Assembly: GCA_021108395.1 (NCBI GenBank)
Contig: JAIOQZ010000038.1
Coordinates: forward strand, 67,415-119,707
From: Candidatus Cloacimonadota bacterium
Lineage (GTDB): Bacteria; Cloacimonadota; Cloacimonadia; Cloacimonadales; JAIOQZ01
DNA: 52,293 bases
Direction: 5' to 3'
Of the stretch, positions 6,051 to 40,287 are shown in pieces (positions within the stretch are counted from its first letter, which is position 1; each line of letters opens with the position of its first letter). Position numbers and translations under genes: made by a program. The notes beneath the pieces are model-generated. The model was given only the letters and a program-made list of their open reading frames with translations. It searched no databases and was not told where the DNA came from.

Positions 6051-6702
6051 CGGTCTCAACAAGTGCGGTTTCTTGCGCGGGGTGTTCTAGGTGCAATGCG
6101 GCAAATTGCTCGTCGAGAGCGTGCTCGAGCTCGGGGCGCAGCAGCGTGTCTCTGCTGAGGCTGTCTATCAGGCTCTGTAGCTCGTTGCGGAAATGAGCCA
6201 GGAAGTCCTTTTTCTTGCCCTTGATGGCTTTGTACTGGTCTTCGAGAACGTGAAGATAGCCGCGGGCATCTTCGAGGATTTGCCGTGCCCGTTGCTCCGC
6301 AGTCTCGATGATGCTCCCTGCGTCGGTTTCGGCCTGGTCGAGAATCTCTTGCTTTGTCTTCTCGGCAAGGATGAGAGTGCGGCTGATCAGGTTTTCAGTT
6401 GGCATGGGTTTGACCTCAGGCTCCGGCTCTGGCTCCGGCTCTGGTTCCGGTTCTGGTTCCGGTTCTGGCTCTTGCGCGGACCTCAGATCAGGATCAGTCC
6501 ACTGGTTTTTCTCTACCTGCTCGCCAGGCTCTGCGAGCTGCTTTTTCTCCAGCTCGAGGTTGGCGCAGCGACTGTGAAGGTCTTCCATCTGGTGGGCCAG
6601 CAGCTCGAGGAACTCGCGCACCTCTTCTTTCTTGTAGCCGGCCAGACCGGTGGAGAATTCCTTGTGCCGGATATCGACGGGTGTCAGTTCCAGTTGTTCC
6701 AT
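6019..6702 (-). CDS. DivIVA-domain protein with Glu-Pro repeat linker
   Basis: About 227 residues. The N terminus (LTPVDIRHKEFSTGLAGY followed by KKEEVREFLELL) is the DivIVA membrane-binding domain, here roughly residues 6-60 including its coiled coil. A Glu-Pro repeat of nine to ten units forms the linker (about 78-97), then a second long coiled coil (about 105-200) and a short polar tail. DivIVA proteins bind negatively curved membrane at division sites or poles and recruit partners; partners are unknown here. Two ATGs are adjacent (6705 and 6702). The GGGGAGGA ribosome-binding site lies directly before them, so the second has the better spacing. Its position between yggT and lspA matches the common yggT-divIVA neighbourhood. 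The EP linker is encoded by a hexanucleotide repeat that could vary in length. Confidence 0.88.
   Translation of the reverse strand: MEQLELTPVDIRHKEFSTGLAGYKKEEVREFLELLAHQMEDLHSRCANLELEKKQLAEPGEQVEKNQWTDPDLRSAQEPEPEPEPEPEPEPEPEPEVKPMPTENLISRTLILAEKTKQEILDQAETDAGSIIETAEQRARQILEDARGYLHVLEDQYKAIKGKKKDFLAHFRNELQSLIDSLSRDTLLRPELEHALDEQFAALHLEHPAQETALVETDEARPPFGID
6419..6472 (+). repeat. Hexanucleotide tandem repeat encoding (Glu-Pro)n
   Basis: Nine consecutive 6-bp units of the form GGYTCY (plus strand) lie inside the DivIVA gene and encode alternating Glu and Pro on the minus strand. The period is a multiple of three, so gain or loss of units would change linker length without a frameshift. Confidence 0.9.
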
Positions 6703-19126: not shown

Positions 19127-21145
19127 ATGAAAAAGGTAATGCACCCGACTCTTTGTCTCATAGTATTATTTCTGACAACCTCTCTCTATGGGATTCCAGA
19201 CTGGGAATTCCTGATCGAACCCACACCAATCATGGAAACATGGTACGACTACCCGCCCAACGATCTCAGCGGCACGTCGGTGATAATGCAAAACTGCAAC
19301 TACCCAGGCAATAACAGCAGTTATATAATGTTCCTGGCTGCCGAAACCGCCACGGAACCCGTCCGGCAAAGGTATGCCTATTTCAGTCCTGAAGGAACGC
19401 TCAACACTCAAGCGCCCCTTTCTACAGACAGCATTGCAGATGGCCCCGGCAGTATGGCCATGGATTTCGATACCCAGGACCCTTTCTTCGCCTGGAGCAG
19501 CGACGCTAACCAGGATGGCATTGACGAAGTGTTGCTCTGCTACGACATGTGGCATGTCCTTCAGGGGCCAGGATTGATTACAACCCCCGCTGTGCTGGCC
19601 CCAAACGGTTGCTGGCCGGCTGGTGGGTTCACGCCGCCCAACGCTGACGACGAGTTTGTCGGCCCCAGAATATTCGTGGTGAATTCACCCACCTACGATA
19701 CCGACGGAACGCGCAGGCTGTACGTGTTTTGCTCGAACCGGACATTGGAGCAGGGCTATCCCCGCAACAACGTTTTGTTCGGCTGGACAGACTTCGACAC
19801 TAGTGACATCGACAACGGATGTGTCGGCGATTCATGGAACTTCTCCACCTTCCCGCAACTTGACGCCTGGGCGGAATATCCGGCGCAAAACCGGCTACAT
19901 TACAGCGCAACTGTCTCACAGGATGGCAAACTCGCCATCATGGGCTACATCGAGCCAGGCCCGGCGGGGTTGAACCTCGAAGACCCAGATGTGTTCGTGC
20001 TCTACAACGACAACTTTGGCGAGGGTGACTGGGAACTGCACATAGCCAACTCTGAGCTGTATCCGCCCATACCCACTGGTGGCCCAAGAGGATTCATCGA
20101 TGCCCTGCAAGATGCCTGGTTTTCTTTTCGCTACAGCGCCAACGTGAACATCAGCTTTGACGCTGAGGGGCGAATTAGCATGCCGGTTATCTATGGTCTG
20201 CATGCGTCGGGGACATACCAGCAAAGCCAGTGGAACCAATGGAACCAGTTGCGAAATATCGTCTTTGATCCTGACGACGATATCTGGACGAATCAGCTTG
20301 CCTACCCTGGCCAGTCAGACGACCTCTATGCCCTCCATCTTCCGTGGGATACAGACGGCGATGGGGAAGTGGACATCACACCCGATGGCCAGCTCGATAC
20401 CGAGCCGCTGTGGCCCTATGGCTGGTATGGTGGGCCTGGGGATATCACTTCCGCATGCAGCAGCATGAATATTCTCTCTAACCAATGTTACACACAGGCC
20501 CTTATCTGGACTGACGCCACCAACGCCCACCGTTTCTGGGCGCTTGGCGAGTCTGGTCTCAGCCTCTGGGCTCAGGTTCCGGAGTTGTGCATTTCGGTCA
20601 GAATCTCGGACTACTGGGAATGGGAGAATCCCATCCGGCTGAACGCAATTGACATACCGGAGATGACAGGCCTGGTGCCGATGTATGTCTTCCCAAGAAA
20701 GGAGTTTATCTATCTTGGTGATAACCAGTTTCGTCTGGATTTCCTCTTCTATGACGACTACTGGTGGGGTATAGGCAGCGCTCCTACACAAAACCCAACA
20801 GGGCAATTGTACTTCTGCTCGCTAATGATTGAAAATTGGGTGTGGTGCGAACTTGGGGACAGCTCATCACTGCCGCAGTTGCTGGGCGCATTTCCCAACC
20901 CCTTCAATCCCGAGACGACCATCGGTTTCAGCCTGCCGGTTTCCGGCCAGGTGGAGCTGACGGTGTATAACGTGAGGGGCGAGCGCGTGAAGACGCTGGT
21001 GAACGGCGATATGAAGCCCGGTGACCACACCGTTACCTGGCAGGGCAGCGACGACAATGGCTCGCCCGTCGCCAGCGGCGTGTATTTCTATCGCTTGCAG
21101 GCCGGCGGCAACACCGAAACCCGCAAGATGCTGCTTTTGAAGTAG
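19127..21145 (+). CDS. Secreted protein with C-terminal sorting domain (paralogue 3, no Asp-box)
   Basis: 672 residues with a signal peptide (about 1-21). It shares the body plan of its neighbours (WYDYPPNDLSG, LYNDNFGEGDWELH, DTDGDGEVD near 408) but is the most divergent in the middle. The Asp-box region reads SVRISDYWEWENP, so the conserved Asp-x-Gly-x-x-Trp pattern is lost. The sorting domain (about 588-672, FPNPFNPETTIGF to KMLLLK) is nearly the same at DNA level as in paralogues 2 and 4. A divergent body beside a conserved tail fits gene conversion or domain exchange. The stop codon lies at the first base-paired segment of a structured repeat (21145). Confidence 0.82.
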   Translation: MKKVMHPTLCLIVLFLTTSLYGIPDWEFLIEPTPIMETWYDYPPNDLSGTSVIMQNCNYPGNNSSYIMFLAAETATEPVRQRYAYFSPEGTLNTQAPLSTDSIADGPGSMAMDFDTQDPFFAWSSDANQDGIDEVLLCYDMWHVLQGPGLITTPAVLAPNGCWPAGGFTPPNADDEFVGPRIFVVNSPTYDTDGTRRLYVFCSNRTLEQGYPRNNVLFGWTDFDTSDIDNGCVGDSWNFSTFPQLDAWAEYPAQNRLHYSATVSQDGKLAIMGYIEPGPAGLNLEDPDVFVLYNDNFGEGDWELHIANSELYPPIPTGGPRGFIDALQDAWFSFRYSANVNISFDAEGRISMPVIYGLHASGTYQQSQWNQWNQLRNIVFDPDDDIWTNQLAYPGQSDDLYALHLPWDTDGDGEVDITPDGQLDTEPLWPYGWYGGPGDITSACSSMNILSNQCYTQALIWTDATNAHRFWALGESGLSLWAQVPELCISVRISDYWEWENPIRLNAIDIPEMTGLVPMYVFPRKEFIYLGDNQFRLDFLFYDDYWWGIGSAPTQNPTGQLYFCSLMIENWVWCELGDSSSLPQLLGAFPNPFNPETTIGFSLPVSGQVELTVYNVRGERVKTLVNGDMKPGDHTVTWQGSDDNGSPVASGVYFYRLQAGGNTETRKMLLLK

Positions 21146-21239
21146 TTTCGGCTTGCACCGGCAAAGCCGGAGCAAACGAAACCATCGAACGAAAGGGTAT
21201 GTAGCGTAGCGAATACCCGAAAGTGGAGTGTAACGCTCC
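21145..21239 (+). ncRNA. Three-hairpin structured repeat element (GTAGCG-loop family), single copy
   Basis: Hairpin 1 (21145-21182) is a long imperfect stem built from GTTTCG, TTGC and CCGGC with an AAA loop and their complements. Hairpin 2 (21195-21218) is a 6-bp stem GGGTAT/ATACCC around the 12-nt loop GTAGCGTAGCGA. Hairpin 3 (21225-21239) pairs GGAGTG with CGCTCC (one G-U pair) over TAA. The segment CATCGAACGAAAG before hairpin 2 and the loop both recur in the 69-bp tandem repeat at 38900-39168 (minus strand), where the stem is AGCAAT/ATTGCT. Conserved loop with altered but still paired stem is evidence for RNA or single-strand DNA structure. Function unknown. Confidence 0.6.
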
Positions 21240-26987: not shown

Positions 26988-27144
26988 CTCGCTTTTTGAA
27001 AAAAGCGAGACCAAAAACTTTTGCGGATACTTCGTATCCTATGTACAAAAACATTTCTTCTAATCAAGGATGCGCAGCATCCGTTGAAAGTTTTTGATTC
27101 CACTTTTTGCAAAAAGTGGACGGGGTTCAGGGGCAGAGCCCCTG
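26988..27144 (+). repeat. MITE-like five-hairpin repeat, copy 1
   Basis: Five hairpins in series: A CTCGCTTTT/AAAAGCGAG (26988-27009), B GGATAC/GTATCC (27025-27039), C GGATGC/GCATCC (27068-27082), D a perfect 20-bp palindrome starting CCACTTTTTG (27100-27119) and E CAGGGGC/GCCCCTG (27128-27144). The linkers ACCAAAAACTTTT after A and GTTTTTGAT before D recur in copy 2. It fills the gap between the small membrane protein and polA and ends 12 bp before the polA ATG, so it would be in the polA leader. Confidence 0.85.
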
Positions 27145-31154: not shown

Positions 31155-31338
31155 AGGGGCGCTGCCCCTAAACCCCGCTCGCCTTTTGTAAAAGGCGAGA
31201 CCGAAAACTTTTAACGGATACTGCGTATCCTGCGTACAAAATAATTATTCCTGTACATAGGAAACGAAGTTTCCGCAAGAGTTTTTGATCCAAACTTTTT
31301 GCAAAAAGTTTGGCGGGGTGTCAGGGGCGGAGCCCCTG
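31155..31338 (+). repeat. MITE-like repeat, copy 2 (complete, with inverted GC-rich ends)
   Basis: This copy has an extra left-end hairpin AGGGGC/GCCCCT (31155-31169) and then A CTCGCCTTTT/AAAAGGCGAG (31178-31199), B GGATAC/GTATCC (31216-31230), C GGAAAC/GTTTCC (31260-31274), D a perfect 24-bp palindrome (31290-31313) and E CAGGGGC/GCCCCTG (31322-31338). The two ends, including AACCCC next to A and GGGGT after D, are inverted copies of each other. Stems A, C and D differ from copy 1 but stay paired. It lies between larA and the protease gene. Confidence 0.88.
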
Positions 31339-34516: not shown

Positions 34517-35980
34517 TCAATCGCGGCGCACCTCCCGCAGCAGGTTGCCCTGGGTGTCGCGCAGGTTCACCACCAGCGGCATGCGCCCTGGCAATGTGTG
34601 ACAGGCGCAGGCCATGCAGGGGTCGTATGGACGGAACGCCATCTCGACCATGTTGAGGATGCCGTCGTCAACTTTGCCGTCGCGGATGAGCCGCTTGGCG
34701 GCCTTGGCGATGGACATCGACATTGCCGATGAGTTGTTCACTGTAGCCACGATGAGGTTGCAGGCGGTCATGATGCCGTTGTCGTCGGTCTTGTAATGAT
34801 GAATGAGCGTACCACGCGCCGCCTCGACGACGCCTACGCCTTCGGAAGGAGTGGTGGTGGGGATGTTGCGGATATCGGGGCTGGTGATGCTCTCGTCTTC
34901 GAGCAGCCGCACCATCGCCTCGGCAGCCTGCATCACCTCGATAAGGCGCGCCCAGTGGAAGGCCAGCGTATTGTGCGCGGGCTTGCCGCCCAATATCTCA
35001 AACATGCGTTCAGCTTCGGCTTGGGCCAGCGGTGTGGCCATGCCGTCGGCAACGTTAAGACGCGCCAGCGGCGCCACGCGGTAGATGCCGCTGTCCGGGC
35101 CGTCCTCGAATCCATGCCAGCCGATGTCGCGCAGGAAGGGGAACTTCATGTAGCTCCACGGCTCGACATGCTCGGCGATGTGCTTCAGGTAATCCTGCCC
35201 ATCGAAACGAGCCATTTCCTTGCCGCTCGGATCGACAACGCGGATGTGGCCGTCATAGAAGTTCACTTTGTTGTTATCGTCCACCAGGCCCATGTAATAG
35301 GTCTCGTGCTTGTAGATGTCGCCGACTACGAGGTCAACGTATGCATTGTTGGCCAGCACGACGTCGTTGAACACCTGTATCGAGAGCTTGGAGAACTCGA
35401 GGGCGTCGTTTGCCCATGCCAGGAACTCGACGCGCTTCTCTTCGGAGAGAGGCTTGCTTACGCCGCCGGGAAGGCCGCCCACGGGGTGAATGATGCGTCC
35501 CATCAGGTGGGTGACGATGTCGCGGGTTTTCTTGCGGATGCCGATAACTGTCTTGCCCATCTCGATGCCAACCTTGCCAATCACCCCCAGAATGTTGCGC
35601 TCGGCCTTTGGTGCCTGCGGGGTGACGACGAAGTCGGGCCCGCCCAGGAAGTAGAAGTGCAGCACGTGGTCTTCAAATATATAGGCGTTGTAAACCAGTT
35701 CGCGCAGCTTGCGGGCGGTGTCGGTGGGCGTAACGCCATATACGGCGTCGGCGGCTTTGGTGGCGGCCATGTGGTGCGCCATCGGGCACACGCCGCAGAT
35801 GCGCGGAGTAATGCGCGGCATCTCTTCCACTGGACGGCCGATTGCGAACTGCTCGAACCCTTTGAGTTCCGGGATTTGAAGGTAGGCGTTCTTGCAGTTG
35901 CCGTCGTCATCCAGGAATATTTCGATCTTGCCATGTCCCTCGAGGCGGGTGATTGGATCGATGGTTATCTTCTTTGCCAT
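34517..35980 (-). CDS. mvhA: [NiFe]-hydrogenase large subunit, group 3c (MvhA-like)
   Basis: 487 residues. The nickel-iron site is formed by two motifs: RICGVC (Cys62, Cys65) and DPCMACACH (Cys455, Cys458). The 26 residues after His461 form the tail removed by the maturation protease. The N terminus MAKKITIDPITRLEGHG is the family opening. The short form of the first motif and the association with mvhG, mvhD and hdrABC place it with the soluble F420-non-reducing/heterodisulfide-linked hydrogenases, which split H2 and pass electrons to HdrA. There is no membrane anchor or signal peptide in the small subunit, so the enzyme is cytoplasmic. It starts 4 bp after mvhG. Confidence 0.95.
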   Translation of the reverse strand: MAKKITIDPITRLEGHGKIEIFLDDDGNCKNAYLQIPELKGFEQFAIGRPVEEMPRITPRICGVCPMAHHMAATKAADAVYGVTPTDTARKLRELVYNAYIFEDHVLHFYFLGGPDFVVTPQAPKAERNILGVIGKVGIEMGKTVIGIRKKTRDIVTHLMGRIIHPVGGLPGGVSKPLSEEKRVEFLAWANDALEFSKLSIQVFNDVVLANNAYVDLVVGDIYKHETYYMGLVDDNNKVNFYDGHIRVVDPSGKEMARFDGQDYLKHIAEHVEPWSYMKFPFLRDIGWHGFEDGPDSGIYRVAPLARLNVADGMATPLAQAEAERMFEILGGKPAHNTLAFHWARLIEVMQAAEAMVRLLEDESITSPDIRNIPTTTPSEGVGVVEAARGTLIHHYKTDDNGIMTACNLIVATVNNSSAMSMSIAKAAKRLIRDGKVDDGILNMVEMAFRPYDPCMACACHTLPGRMPLVVNLRDTQGNLLREVRRD

Positions 35981-36995: not shown

Positions 36996-37053
36996 GAATC
37001 CTCCCAATCTATCAAATTTCCTGAAATTATGCTTAATACTCGCTAACTATGCA

Positions 37054-37163
37054 GGATGCGCAGCATCCGCAAAAGTTTTCGGTCTCGCCTTTTTCAAAAG
37101 GCGAGCGGGGTTCAAGTCGCGTAGTGCAACGAAGTGAGCCCTCAAAAGGGGCGGCGCCCCTGT
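37054..37163 (-). repeat. MITE-like repeat, copy 3 (rearranged, inverted)
   Basis: Read on the minus strand this copy begins with the GC-rich end hairpin AGGGGC/GCCCCT (37149-37163), then an extra stem GGGTTCA/TGAGCCC-like (about 37109-37140), hairpin A CTCGCCTTTT/AAAAGGCGAG (37084-37105), the linker ACCGAAAACTTTT, and GGATGC/GCATCC (37054-37068). Hairpins D and E are missing, so it is a half element. It occupies the gap between frdA-like and mvhG. Confidence 0.8.
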
Positions 37164-37184
37164 CTTATAGCTTGCCCCTGAATC

Positions 37185-38852
37185 TTAACGCAATGATCCG
37201 TCATAGTGCGCGGTAAGCTGACGCGCTTTCACGCCCTCGGGTGTGTAGTCCGGCAAAAGCATCGGCGAGATGACCTTGCGGTCAACGCCCAGCGCTTCCA
37301 CATCTTTCTCGTAGTTGGTGATGTGGTCGAGGTTGAGCTTGCCGACGTTTGCGTCTGCGGCGCACTGGGCGGCAAAGACGCCGGCGCGACGGCCAAAGAC
37401 GATGAGGTCGAGCTGGCTGTTGCCCATAAGGCGGTTGCGGCCATGAATGCCGCCGGCAGCTTCGCCACAGCAATACAGACCGGGTATATTGGTCTCGCAT
37501 TTTTCGTCGATGAGCAGGCCACCGTTCTGGTAATGCAGTGTGGGATAAACCAGCATCGGCTCGGTGGTGATGTTCACGTCGAAGCGCTGATACTGGCGCA
37601 GCATGGCCGGCAGGTTTTCCTGGATAGTGCCGGGACCGTGAATCATCTCGATGAGTGGCGTATCGAGCCAGATGCCGCTGTTGCCGGCAGGCGACTTGAT
37701 GCCTTTGCCGATCTCGACGCACTCGCGGATGAACGCGCTGGCCTCGATGTCACGCGGTTCGAGCGGATGCACGAACAGTTCACCCTCGGAGTTCACCGGC
37801 TGAGCGCCCAGGGCGCGCAGCTTTTCTGTGCACAGGAAGCCCAGAATCTGCGACGGGAACACAGCGCCGGTTGGATGGTATTGTACCGAGTCCATGAACA
37901 TCAGCTTTGCGCCTGCGCGATAGCCGATAACTATGCCGTCGGCGGTGGCGCCATAGTGGTTCGAGGTCTCGAATCCCTTGATGTGCAGTCGGCCAAACCC
38001 GCCCGTGGCGATGATGGTGGCCCCTGCCTTCATTGTCATATAGGTTTTGTTTTCGAGGTGATAGCACACTGCGCCGGCCACGCGGCCTTTGTCGTCCTTG
38101 AGAAGCTCGATGGCGGGCATGTGCTCGTATATCTTGATCTGATCGGGGCGGTTCTGCACCTCGTCACGCAGTGTGCGGCAGATGGCGGCGCCGGTGTAGT
38201 CACGCGCAGAGTGCATACGGGCGCGGCTGGTGCCGCCGCCGGCTTTGGTCTTCATGGTGCCGTTGGGGTTGCGGTCGAACATCACGCCCAGCTCGGTGAG
38301 CCATTCGATGGCGTCTGGCGCTTCGTCCACCAGGGCGCGAGCCAGCTCGGGGATGTTGTCGAAGTGGCCGCCGCCGAGCACGTCGAGGTAGTGCAGCACC
38401 GGGCTGTCGTTGGGACGTGTGGCGGACTGGATGCCGCCCTGCGCCATCATCGAGTTCGAGTCGCCGATGCGCAGCTTGGTCACCAACGTTACCCTGGCGC
38501 CCTTCTCGGCGGCCAGCAGCGCGGCGGCGAACCCTGCCGAGCCGGCGCCGATTACCAGCACGTCGGTCTCGATGTCCGGTTTGTCGAGGTTGAAAATGTC
38601 GGGGCTGATGCGGGCGTATGCTTCGAGGTTCTCGGCCACCTCGGAGGTGACAATGTCACCCTTGCTGGGCCCCACCTTGATGGGACGGCGTGCGTCGTCC
38701 TGGTAGTCGGGATGGAACTTGCTCAGCACTTCGGCGCGCTGGTCGGAGTTCATCATGGGAAAGAGCGGCTTGCCCGATTTGGCCAGTTTGAGGCGTTCTG
38801 AGCGCGTTCTGGCCACCTTTTTCAAGGATTCCTGCATGTAATCCGGATACAT
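37185..38852 (-). CDS. Fumarate reductase/succinate dehydrogenase-type flavoprotein (TfrA-like)
   Basis: 555 residues with ATG at 38852 behind AGGAGA. The FAD-binding start is VLVIGAGSAGFAAALLAAEKG (near 95-115, split here by no gap). SdhA/FrdA motifs follow: HSARDYTGAAI, VQYHPTGAVFP, TEKLRALGA, LHYQNGGLLID, GLYCCGEAAGG, GRNRLMGNSQLD. Residues matching E. coli FrdA Arg287, His355 and Arg390 are present. However, the usual RGEGG reads RALGA and HYTMGG reads HYQNGG. So the enzyme is related to fumarate reductases and to the A subunit of methanogen thiol:fumarate reductase, but the substrate is not certain. There is no membrane anchor subunit, which points to a soluble enzyme. Lying between mvhD/frdB and mvhG, it is enclosed by hydrogenase genes. 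Confidence 0.85.
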   Translation of the reverse strand: MYPDYMQESLKKVARTRSERLKLAKSGKPLFPMMNSDQRAEVLSKFHPDYQDDARRPIKVGPSKGDIVTSEVAENLEAYARISPDIFNLDKPDIETDVLVIGAGSAGFAAALLAAEKGARVTLVTKLRIGDSNSMMAQGGIQSATRPNDSPVLHYLDVLGGGHFDNIPELARALVDEAPDAIEWLTELGVMFDRNPNGTMKTKAGGGTSRARMHSARDYTGAAICRTLRDEVQNRPDQIKIYEHMPAIELLKDDKGRVAGAVCYHLENKTYMTMKAGATIIATGGFGRLHIKGFETSNHYGATADGIVIGYRAGAKLMFMDSVQYHPTGAVFPSQILGFLCTEKLRALGAQPVNSEGELFVHPLEPRDIEASAFIRECVEIGKGIKSPAGNSGIWLDTPLIEMIHGPGTIQENLPAMLRQYQRFDVNITTEPMLVYPTLHYQNGGLLIDEKCETNIPGLYCCGEAAGGIHGRNRLMGNSQLDLIVFGRRAGVFAAQCAADANVGKLNLDHITNYEKDVEALGVDRKVISPMLLPDYTPEGVKARQLTAHYDGSLR

Positions 38853-38899
38853 GGGCGTCTCCTGTATATCGCTGTTTTTCTAAGGTAAAAACACTCCAC

Positions 38900-39168
38900 T
38901 TACAGCAATTCGCTTCGCTACATTGCTTACGTTCGATGATTATGTTTTCGCTGACGCGAAATCCAGAATTACAGCAATTCGCTTCGCTACATTGCTTACG
39001 TTCGATGATTATGTTTTCGCTGACGCGAAATCCAGAATTACAGCAATTCGCTTCGCTACATTGCTTACGTTCGATGATTATGTTTTCGCTGACGCGAAAT
39101 CCAGAATTACAGCAATTCGCTTCGCTACATTGCTTACGTTCGATGATTATGTTTTCGCTGACGCGAAA
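38900..39168 (-). repeat. Four tandem copies of a 69-bp structured repeat
   Basis: The unit repeats four times at 38900, 38969, 39038 and 39107 with essentially no differences; the last copy loses its final bases near 39168. On the minus strand each unit has a hairpin TTTCGC/GCGAAA (loop GTCA), the segment CATCGAACGTAAG, and a 6-bp stem AGCAAT/ATTGCT around the loop GTAGCGAAGCGA. The loop and the preceding segment match the element at 21145-21239. The repeat makes up most of the 323-bp gap 38853-39175 between the frdA-like and frdB-like genes. Open frames cross it because 69 is a multiple of three, but they have no start signals. Confidence 0.93.
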
Positions 39169-39175
39169 GCAATAA

Positions 39176-39862
39176 TTATGGCTCAATCTTGATCTCGCGG
39201 GCGTAATAACGCTTCGAAAGCGTTTTCTCGTCCATCTTGACCAGCTCGTCCAACTCGGCCCCATACTTGCCCTCGCGGACTTCCTTCACGCGGGCCACCA
39301 GATCAGGACTCTCGGGCAACAGGTACTTGCCGGTGAGACGACGGGCGAGGATGGCGGCGTTGTACTGCACAATCTCGGCCGGGCAACGCAGGGCGCAGAG
39401 GCCACAGCGGATGCAGTCGAACGAGAGCTCGGCGGCGCGTTTGATGTCGCCGCGGATGAGCGCCTGCACGTAGTCCATCACTTGGATGTCCTGCGGGCAG
39501 CTTTTGGTGCAGGTGTTGCACGCCACGCAACAGAACAGGATGGGATAGAATTCCTTGATCGTGTCAACCGTCGGCTTCAGCTCTTCCAGACGATAGAGCG
39601 GTTTCTCGGCTGGAACAAAGGGAATCTGCGCGATGTACATGCCATCGGTGACAACCGTTTGGCAGGCCAGGCCCGACTGTAGTTTGTAGTCGCCCTTCTC
39701 GCGGTAGAGCGTGGCGCAGGCGCCGCAGAAACCCTCGCGGCAACCGACACCGGTTGTAAGTTGCAGGCCGGCATACTCCATGGCGCCCACGATAGTGCAA
39801 TCGTTGGGCACCTTGTAGGCGTCGCCCATGATGTACACGGTAACCATCGGAACGTTTTTCAT
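39176..39862 (-). CDS. Iron-sulfur subunit, FrdB/TfrB-like (2Fe-2S plus two 4Fe-4S)
   Basis: 228 residues from the ATG at 39862, which has GGAGGA at 6 bp; the longer frame upstream is antisense-like text of mvhD in another frame. The N-terminal domain binds a plant-type 2Fe-2S cluster (Cys41, Cys46, Cys49, Cys67 in GVGCREGFCGACA). The C-terminal domain has two CxxCxxCxxxCP motifs (Cys112/115/118/122 and Cys150/153/156/160). Classical FrdB has 2Fe-2S, 4Fe-4S and 3Fe-4S; here the third site has a full set for 4Fe-4S. It matches the N-terminal part of TfrB but lacks TfrB's CCG domain, which in this operon exists separately as HdrB. It would carry electrons between the hydrogenase/Hdr core and the flavoprotein. 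It starts 2 bp after the mvhD stop. Confidence 0.85.
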   Translation of the reverse strand: MKNVPMVTVYIMGDAYKVPNDCTIVGAMEYAGLQLTTGVGCREGFCGACATLYREKGDYKLQSGLACQTVVTDGMYIAQIPFVPAEKPLYRLEELKPTVDTIKEFYPILFCCVACNTCTKSCPQDIQVMDYVQALIRGDIKRAAELSFDCIRCGLCALRCPAEIVQYNAAILARRLTGKYLLPESPDLVARVKEVREGKYGAELDELVKMDEKTLSKRYYAREIKIEP

Positions 39863-39864
39863 TG

Positions 39865-40287
39865 TCATTCCTCCGTCAGGTTCGCTTTGGGCAATGGGCC
39901 CAGTTCTTGTATGTGTGCTGTGAATTCTTTCATGGTTTCGGCAAACTTGCGGCCTTCGCTGGCCGAGATCCACTCGAGACGCAGGCGGTCGGGGCGAATG
40001 CCGAGCTGTTCGAGCGTTGTCTTGAGCAGCATGATGCGCCGCTGGGTCTTGTAGTTGCCGGTCTGATAGTGGCAGTCGCCGGGATGGCAGCCGCCGATGA
40101 ACACGCCGTCGCAGCCTTCGGTGAAGGCCAGCAGTATGTGCTGCGGATCGATGCGGGAGCTGCACAGCGTCTTGATTACCACCCCGTTGGGGGGGTACTT
40201 CAGGCGCGAGGTGCCCGCAAGGTCGGCGCCGGCGTAGGTGCACCACTGGCACAGGAAACAGACAATCTTGGGTTCGAACTCTTTCAT
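39865..40287 (-). CDS. mvhD: Hydrogenase/heterodisulfide reductase linker iron-sulfur subunit (MvhD)
   Basis: 140 residues from the ATG at 40287, preceded by GGGAGAG. MvhD carries a 2Fe-2S cluster and bridges the hydrogenase to HdrA. Visible motifs are CFLCQWCTYAGADLAG (Cys10, Cys13, Cys16), IKTLCSSRIDP and the GCHPGDCHY segment with two more cysteines. This text is typical of the hydrogenase iron-sulfur subunit family. It lies 16 bp after hdrA, which is the usual neighbour, and is followed directly by the frdB-like gene. The next hydrogenase genes are more than 2.8 kb away, an unusual split of mvhD from mvhGA. Confidence 0.94.
   Translation of the reverse strand: MKEFEPKIVCFLCQWCTYAGADLAGTSRLKYPPNGVVIKTLCSSRIDPQHILLAFTEGCDGVFIGGCHPGDCHYQTGNYKTQRRIMLLKTTLEQLGIRPDRLRLEWISASEGRKFAETMKEFTAHIQELGPLPKANLTEE

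Follow-up and report, generated by a model that had tools for sequence, protein, structure and literature searches.

Based on comparison with the rest of its own genome, the tandem array lying between frdB and frdA is identified as a divergent, tandemly expanded copy of a dispersed palindromic element which is specific to this genome and is placed at gene ends. The array lies on the minus strand of the window (the whole stretch of DNA analyzed, 52,293 nucleotides) within an operon in the order POR subunit, hdrC, hdrB, hdrA, mvhD, frdB, array, frdA, mvhG and mvhA. The relevant features are as follows.

37185-38852, minus strand: frdA-like flavoprotein, 555 aa (start at 38852)
38853-39175, minus strand: frdB-frdA gap, 323 bp
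38859-38864, minus strand: probable frdA ribosome-binding site by sequence, CAGGAG, kept beside the frdA start
38892-38901, minus strand: canonical 3' end of the element, AAGTGGAGTG; single occurrence, after the last unit
38900-39168, minus strand: tandem array, 69-bp unit x 3.9, 100% identical
38904-38927, minus strand: hairpin 1 of the frdA-proximal unit, AGCAAT-GTAGCGAAGCGA-ATTGCT; further copies at 38973-38996, 39042-39065 and 39111-39134
38930-38938, minus strand: conserved inter-hairpin linker CATCGAACG (mRNA sense), recurring every 69 bp
38946-38961, minus strand: hairpin 2 inner stem, TTTCGC-GTCA-GCGAAA; further copies at 39015-39030, 39084-39099 and 39153-39168
39134-39178, minus strand: canonical 5' end of the element, comprising the frdB stop codon, first-unit hairpin 2, then linker
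39176-39868, minus strand: frdB-like Fe-S subunit, 230 aa

Analysis of the plus strand with TRF gave, for positions 38900-39168, a period of 69 with 3.9 copies, 100% matches, 0% indels and a score of 538, which bears out the perfect tandem repeats reported for this gap in the initial annotation. Of the four perfect copies counted there the perfection stands and the number was very slightly generous, the array comprising three full 69-bp units and 62 bp of a fourth. A recent expansion or homogenization had also been proposed, and this is supported by sequence comparison, since the units are identical to one another and show about 80% identity to related elements in the same genome.

The description of the operon as tightly packed holds as far as frdB, where the spacing is -26 to +11 bp, and fails beyond it, the frdA-mvhG gap (37008-37184) being 177 bp long. 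This second gap contains a mosaic of different palindromes belonging to family B, described below: GGGGCGCCGCCCC, CTCGCCTTTT..AAAAGGCGAG and GGATGCTGCGCATCC. The closest named relatives of FrdA are encoded by Candidatus Cloacimonadota metagenome bins (75% identity). The start at 40252 of a 358-aa open reading frame, which would represent an MvhD-FrdB fusion, was judged spurious and the fusion rejected, the first 128 residues being mvhD read out of frame. The separate mvhD gene (39865-40287) overlaps the ends of hdrA and frdB, and among families it matches the C-terminal part of HdrA2 best. At the C-terminus of the MvhA-like product (34517-35980) there is an additional match to the VhuU selenoprotein model, with 1.5e-7, below the cut-off of that model.

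When the array was used for a DNA search of its own genome, three weaker relatives were found. The 15-base core TTCGCTWCGCTACAT, allowing one mismatch, gave 35 matches in the genome and none for the reversed control, a pattern which takes in family B as well; a flank pattern gave 20 matches against none in its control. Two families with a common loop were distinguished, family A, arranged as in the array, and family B (GGCTCACTCCGCTTCGCTACATGACAAGCTC), which is a different mosaic in mixed orientation. A family A covariance model (R1) from which the array copies had been left out recovered the four units of the array (53.7 and 36.3 bits) and identified 28 units at 22 loci in the whole genome. 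The same model gave no match in 59 same-order genomes, and the exact element pattern was absent from a collection of 84,980 species from which this genome itself may have been left out. No match to the element was obtained in phage and plasmid collections and none for viral contigs, and nothing in Rfam matched at the gathering score. One further family A member lies within the window.

21146-21230, plus strand: one canonical copy of the element, not in tandem, immediately downstream of the stop codon of a gene with a T9SS sorting domain (19127-21145)

On the mRNA strand the canonical element consists of the upstream stop codon, hairpin 2, the linker CATCGAACGAAAG, hairpin 1 and CGAAAGTGGAGT, and its 3' end after hairpin 1 reads GUGGAGU. 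Each hairpin is roughly 16-46 nt and the conserved two-hairpin module about 70-90 nt. The stem of hairpin 2 includes the stop codon (e.g. TAACGCC..GGCGTTA) or begins at its last base, while hairpin 1 occurs as markedly different sequences set between constant linkers, namely GGGTATGTAGCGTAGCGAATACCC, CTTTGCCGCGAAGCGGCATGG, or CTTTGCAGCACTAACTT...AAGTTAGTGCTGCATGG. Relative to canonical family A, the array has a left linker shorter by one base and reads CGTAAG/TGTAAG at the site where other members read CGAAAG.

Each array unit folds on the transcribed strand into two short hairpins. Neither the single unit (z = -0.31) nor the whole array (z = +0.45) has a fold energy better than that of dinucleotide shuffles, and the hairpins are thus unproven by energy alone. 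Their reality is argued by covariation of stem 1 among related copies. The GGGTATGTAGCGTAGCGAATACCC-class stem GGGTAT/ATACCC is changed to GGATAT/ATATCC at one locus (L015) and to AGCAAT/ATTGCT in the array with pairing kept, so that double changes are seen at pairs 1, 3 and 4; the 12-nt loop is constant except for single-base changes, and one broken pair was found (at L027). The initially annotated figure of eight stem-loops in the mRNA is not firm, because units partly pair with one another in the whole-array fold.

All 22 loci lie between genes or over a stop codon, and in 21 of them a same-strand gene is directly upstream of the element, L087 being the sole breach of this orientation rule. 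In the 20 loci measured the stop codon marks the base of hairpin 2 and precedes the linker by 18-52 nt. The frdB gene follows the same rule: its stop codon TAA (39176-39178) adjoins the outer stem of the first unit (ATTAT..ATAAT), which begins at the last base of that codon, and the AAGTGGAGTG end comes after the last unit. The genes downstream of the element are in tandem in 16 loci and convergent in six. An LLLK-type tail, i.e. a T9SS-type C-terminus, was found in 14-15 of 20 host genes, and TIGR04183, the T9SS type A sorting domain, is matched by the host gene in the window (19127-21145). Such hosts do not count as independent cases, and the elements at them may have arrived with the gene end rather than by independent placement. 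Only about six hosts, frdB among them, are clearly unrelated.

A search of the genome for other arrays, as had been suggested, disclosed two more in family A, one of 77 bp x 2.9 (97%) and one of 76 bp x 2.0 (98%), so that tandem copies occur at three of the 22 loci. The three arrays agree in the extent of their unit, which starts with the inner stem of hairpin 2 and includes all of hairpin 1; the hairpin 2 outer arm beside the stop codon stays single. The array can accordingly no longer be regarded as a feature peculiar to the frd operon, since the dispersed gene-end element has been expanded in tandem at three loci, frd among them. On these sequence comparisons, landing or arising of the element at frd followed by amplification would be a more economical origin than a device evolved for frd, and the tandem copies at other loci argue against a pure assembly artefact. 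The periods also bear on the proposal that the array is a coding repeat. Its 69 bp equal 23 codons, one minus-strand frame is open through all units, and an open reading frame (38656-39264) spans the array. That frame differs from those of both frdB and frdA, the related copies are intergenic, and 76 and 77 are not multiples of three, which excludes coding as a common explanation; for the frd array itself we regard it as scarcely credible.

Hairpins placed directly after a stop codon might also be taken for a transcription terminator or for a transcription unit boundary between frdB and frdA. The interval 38600-39500 yielded neither a promoter nor an intrinsic terminator, the G+C-rich hairpin followed by a T run which marks an intrinsic terminator is absent, as is any U-tract in the RNA, and termination here would cut off the conserved frdA-mvhGA part of the operon. 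This explanation is thus very unlikely, and the lack of promoter and terminator in that interval fits readthrough.

The explanation we favor, with moderate confidence, is that a gene-end palindrome resembling REP/BIME elements is transcribed between frdB and frdA, where it may uncouple or differentially stabilize the two halves of the operon, and that it was amplified by slippage or recombination. The mRNA would include the array downstream of frdB. Terminating ribosomes would be kept from frdA by the hairpins together with about 270 nt of spacer that is not translated, so that translational coupling would be lost, and the hairpins could hinder 3'-5' decay or mark a site of processing. The upstream hdr-mvhD-frdB and downstream frdA-mvhG-mvhA messages could in this way meet separate fates, and new copies would arise through slipped replication or through unequal recombination of one unit with another. 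Precedents exist: 3' REP hairpins stabilize the upstream mRNA and lengthen its half-life, REPs lying near a stop codon can cause ribosomes to stall (PMC12306157), and in the cip-cel operon stoichiometry is set by intercistronic stem-loops (PMC10311766). A role for the array in tuning frdA, mvhG and mvhA relative to the upstream genes, as first suggested, is plausible in that it matches REP action elsewhere (PMC12306157).

A strong, if less probable, alternative is that of a neutral or selfish repeat. It would reach gene ends by transposition, or through being copied together with homologous ends, and would expand by slippage while bringing frd no benefit. Consistent with this are the failure to find the element in the 59 same-order genomes or in the pattern scan of 84,980 species, the tandem copies at unrelated loci, the other repeat mosaic in the frdA-mvhG gap, and the unrelated small inserts carried in the frdB-frdA gap by four relatives. 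The operon works with a frdB-frdA gap of 9-40 bp in most relatives, and neutral insertion accounts for the anatomy of the element equally well. Against it stand the strict sense placement, the recurrence at unrelated genes of a stop codon at the base of the hairpin, and the pairing kept in the divergent copy; the sense orientation and the maintained pairing suggest constraint, at least on the element.

We also considered a lineage-specific, stop-codon-anchored 3' RNA module composed of two hairpins and conserved linkers, possibly bound by CsrA, with tandem copy number as an adjustable output setting between the operon halves; this seems unlikely. A narrower proposal, that the repeated GUGGA between hairpins forms a 3' RNA element which recruits or titrates CsrA, is likewise unlikely. 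CsrA is encoded in this genome, GGA is invariant in the 3' linker in all aligned rows, and the array units retain a GGA (UUCUGGAUUU). Other linker positions are, however, equally invariant among these young copies, so GGA is not singled out, and no known 3'-end CsrA array of such form was found.

REP-like repeats are known mainly from Proteobacteria; RAYT is their presumed mover, and a RAYT transposase is usual for GTAG-type REPs. No match to RAYT (Y1 transposase, PF01797) was found in this 98% complete genome by a search which was positive in five control genomes, and a RAYT-mobilized REP was therefore rejected. Family A resembles REP/BIME elements (GTAG- and CGTC-tagged superfamilies; PMC3733652, PMC12306157) in being made of short palindromes at many intergenic sites near gene ends, with compensatory stem variants and tandem clusters; some REP elements also supply stop codons to genes (PMC3733652). 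It differs in having two different hairpins in fixed order, an almost invariable sense placement in which the stop codon lies at the base of the stem, and 28 units at 22 loci as against more than 100 copies in typical REP genomes. REP/BIME elements are about 14-40 nt in length; the family A hairpins are roughly 16-46 nt each and are set in a module of ~70-90 nt. GTAG was found overlapping the stop codon and within the hairpin 1 loop, and no unpaired terminal GTAG/CGTC tag was evident. Based on hairpin order, sense placement, copy number, tag and transposase, the element is REP-like and outside any named REP family.

MITEs with folding ends (Nezha and EFAR, named in PMC3733652) are likewise small, dispersed, non-coding, gene-adjacent, transcribed and foldable, but no terminal inverted repeats, target-site duplication or partner transposase were identified for family A. 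The stem-loops of selective RNA processing and stabilization (cip-cel, PMC10311766; E. coli 3' REPs, PMC12306157) share the location between cistrons and a proposed difference in stability; here the structure is known by anatomy only, and an array of identical units takes the place of single stem-loops. Family A, being fixed in sense at stop codons in a Cloacimonadota-related genome, with mosaic hairpins and no RAYT detected, would provide a useful second case for weighing selfish spread against service at the 3' ends of mRNAs. Should copy number differ between strains, the frd array would constitute a natural test series in an energy-metabolism operon.

In 13 same-order genomes the orthologous frdB-frdA gap is 10-43 bp, compared to 323 bp here, and mostly contains little beyond the frdA ribosome-binding site. 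Among 78 named relatives with a measurable gap it is 9-161 bp in 74; the nearest same-family genome (G001) falls outside this comparison, its contig ending inside mvhD. Four relatives (L118, L142, L144 and L146) carry a larger insert in this gap, which there measures 433-481 bp, and the frdB-frdA junction seems to be a recurrent landing place for small inserts. Those of L118 and L142 were shown by Pfam to encode a 23S rRNA intervening-sequence protein (PF05635), and those of L144 and L146 resemble them by eye only. The L118 insert begins directly after the frdB stop codon and is flanked by inverted repeats; in the same operon its frdA-mvhG gap contains a PD-(D/E)XK gene (GxxExxY-type, PF13366) between long inverted repeats. 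As a small, palindrome-bordered insert in the same gap the PF05635 gene resembles the array, but unlike it the gene is protein-coding. Neither PF05635, searched without a positive control, nor PF13366 gave a match in this genome, and derivation of the array from such inserts was rejected since no such gene was found. Elsewhere in the window, more palindrome mosaics of the same kinds were observed at 31155-31337 and 27068-27143, and an imperfect 6/12-bp tandem repeat, CTCTGGCTCCGG, is located at 6415-6472.
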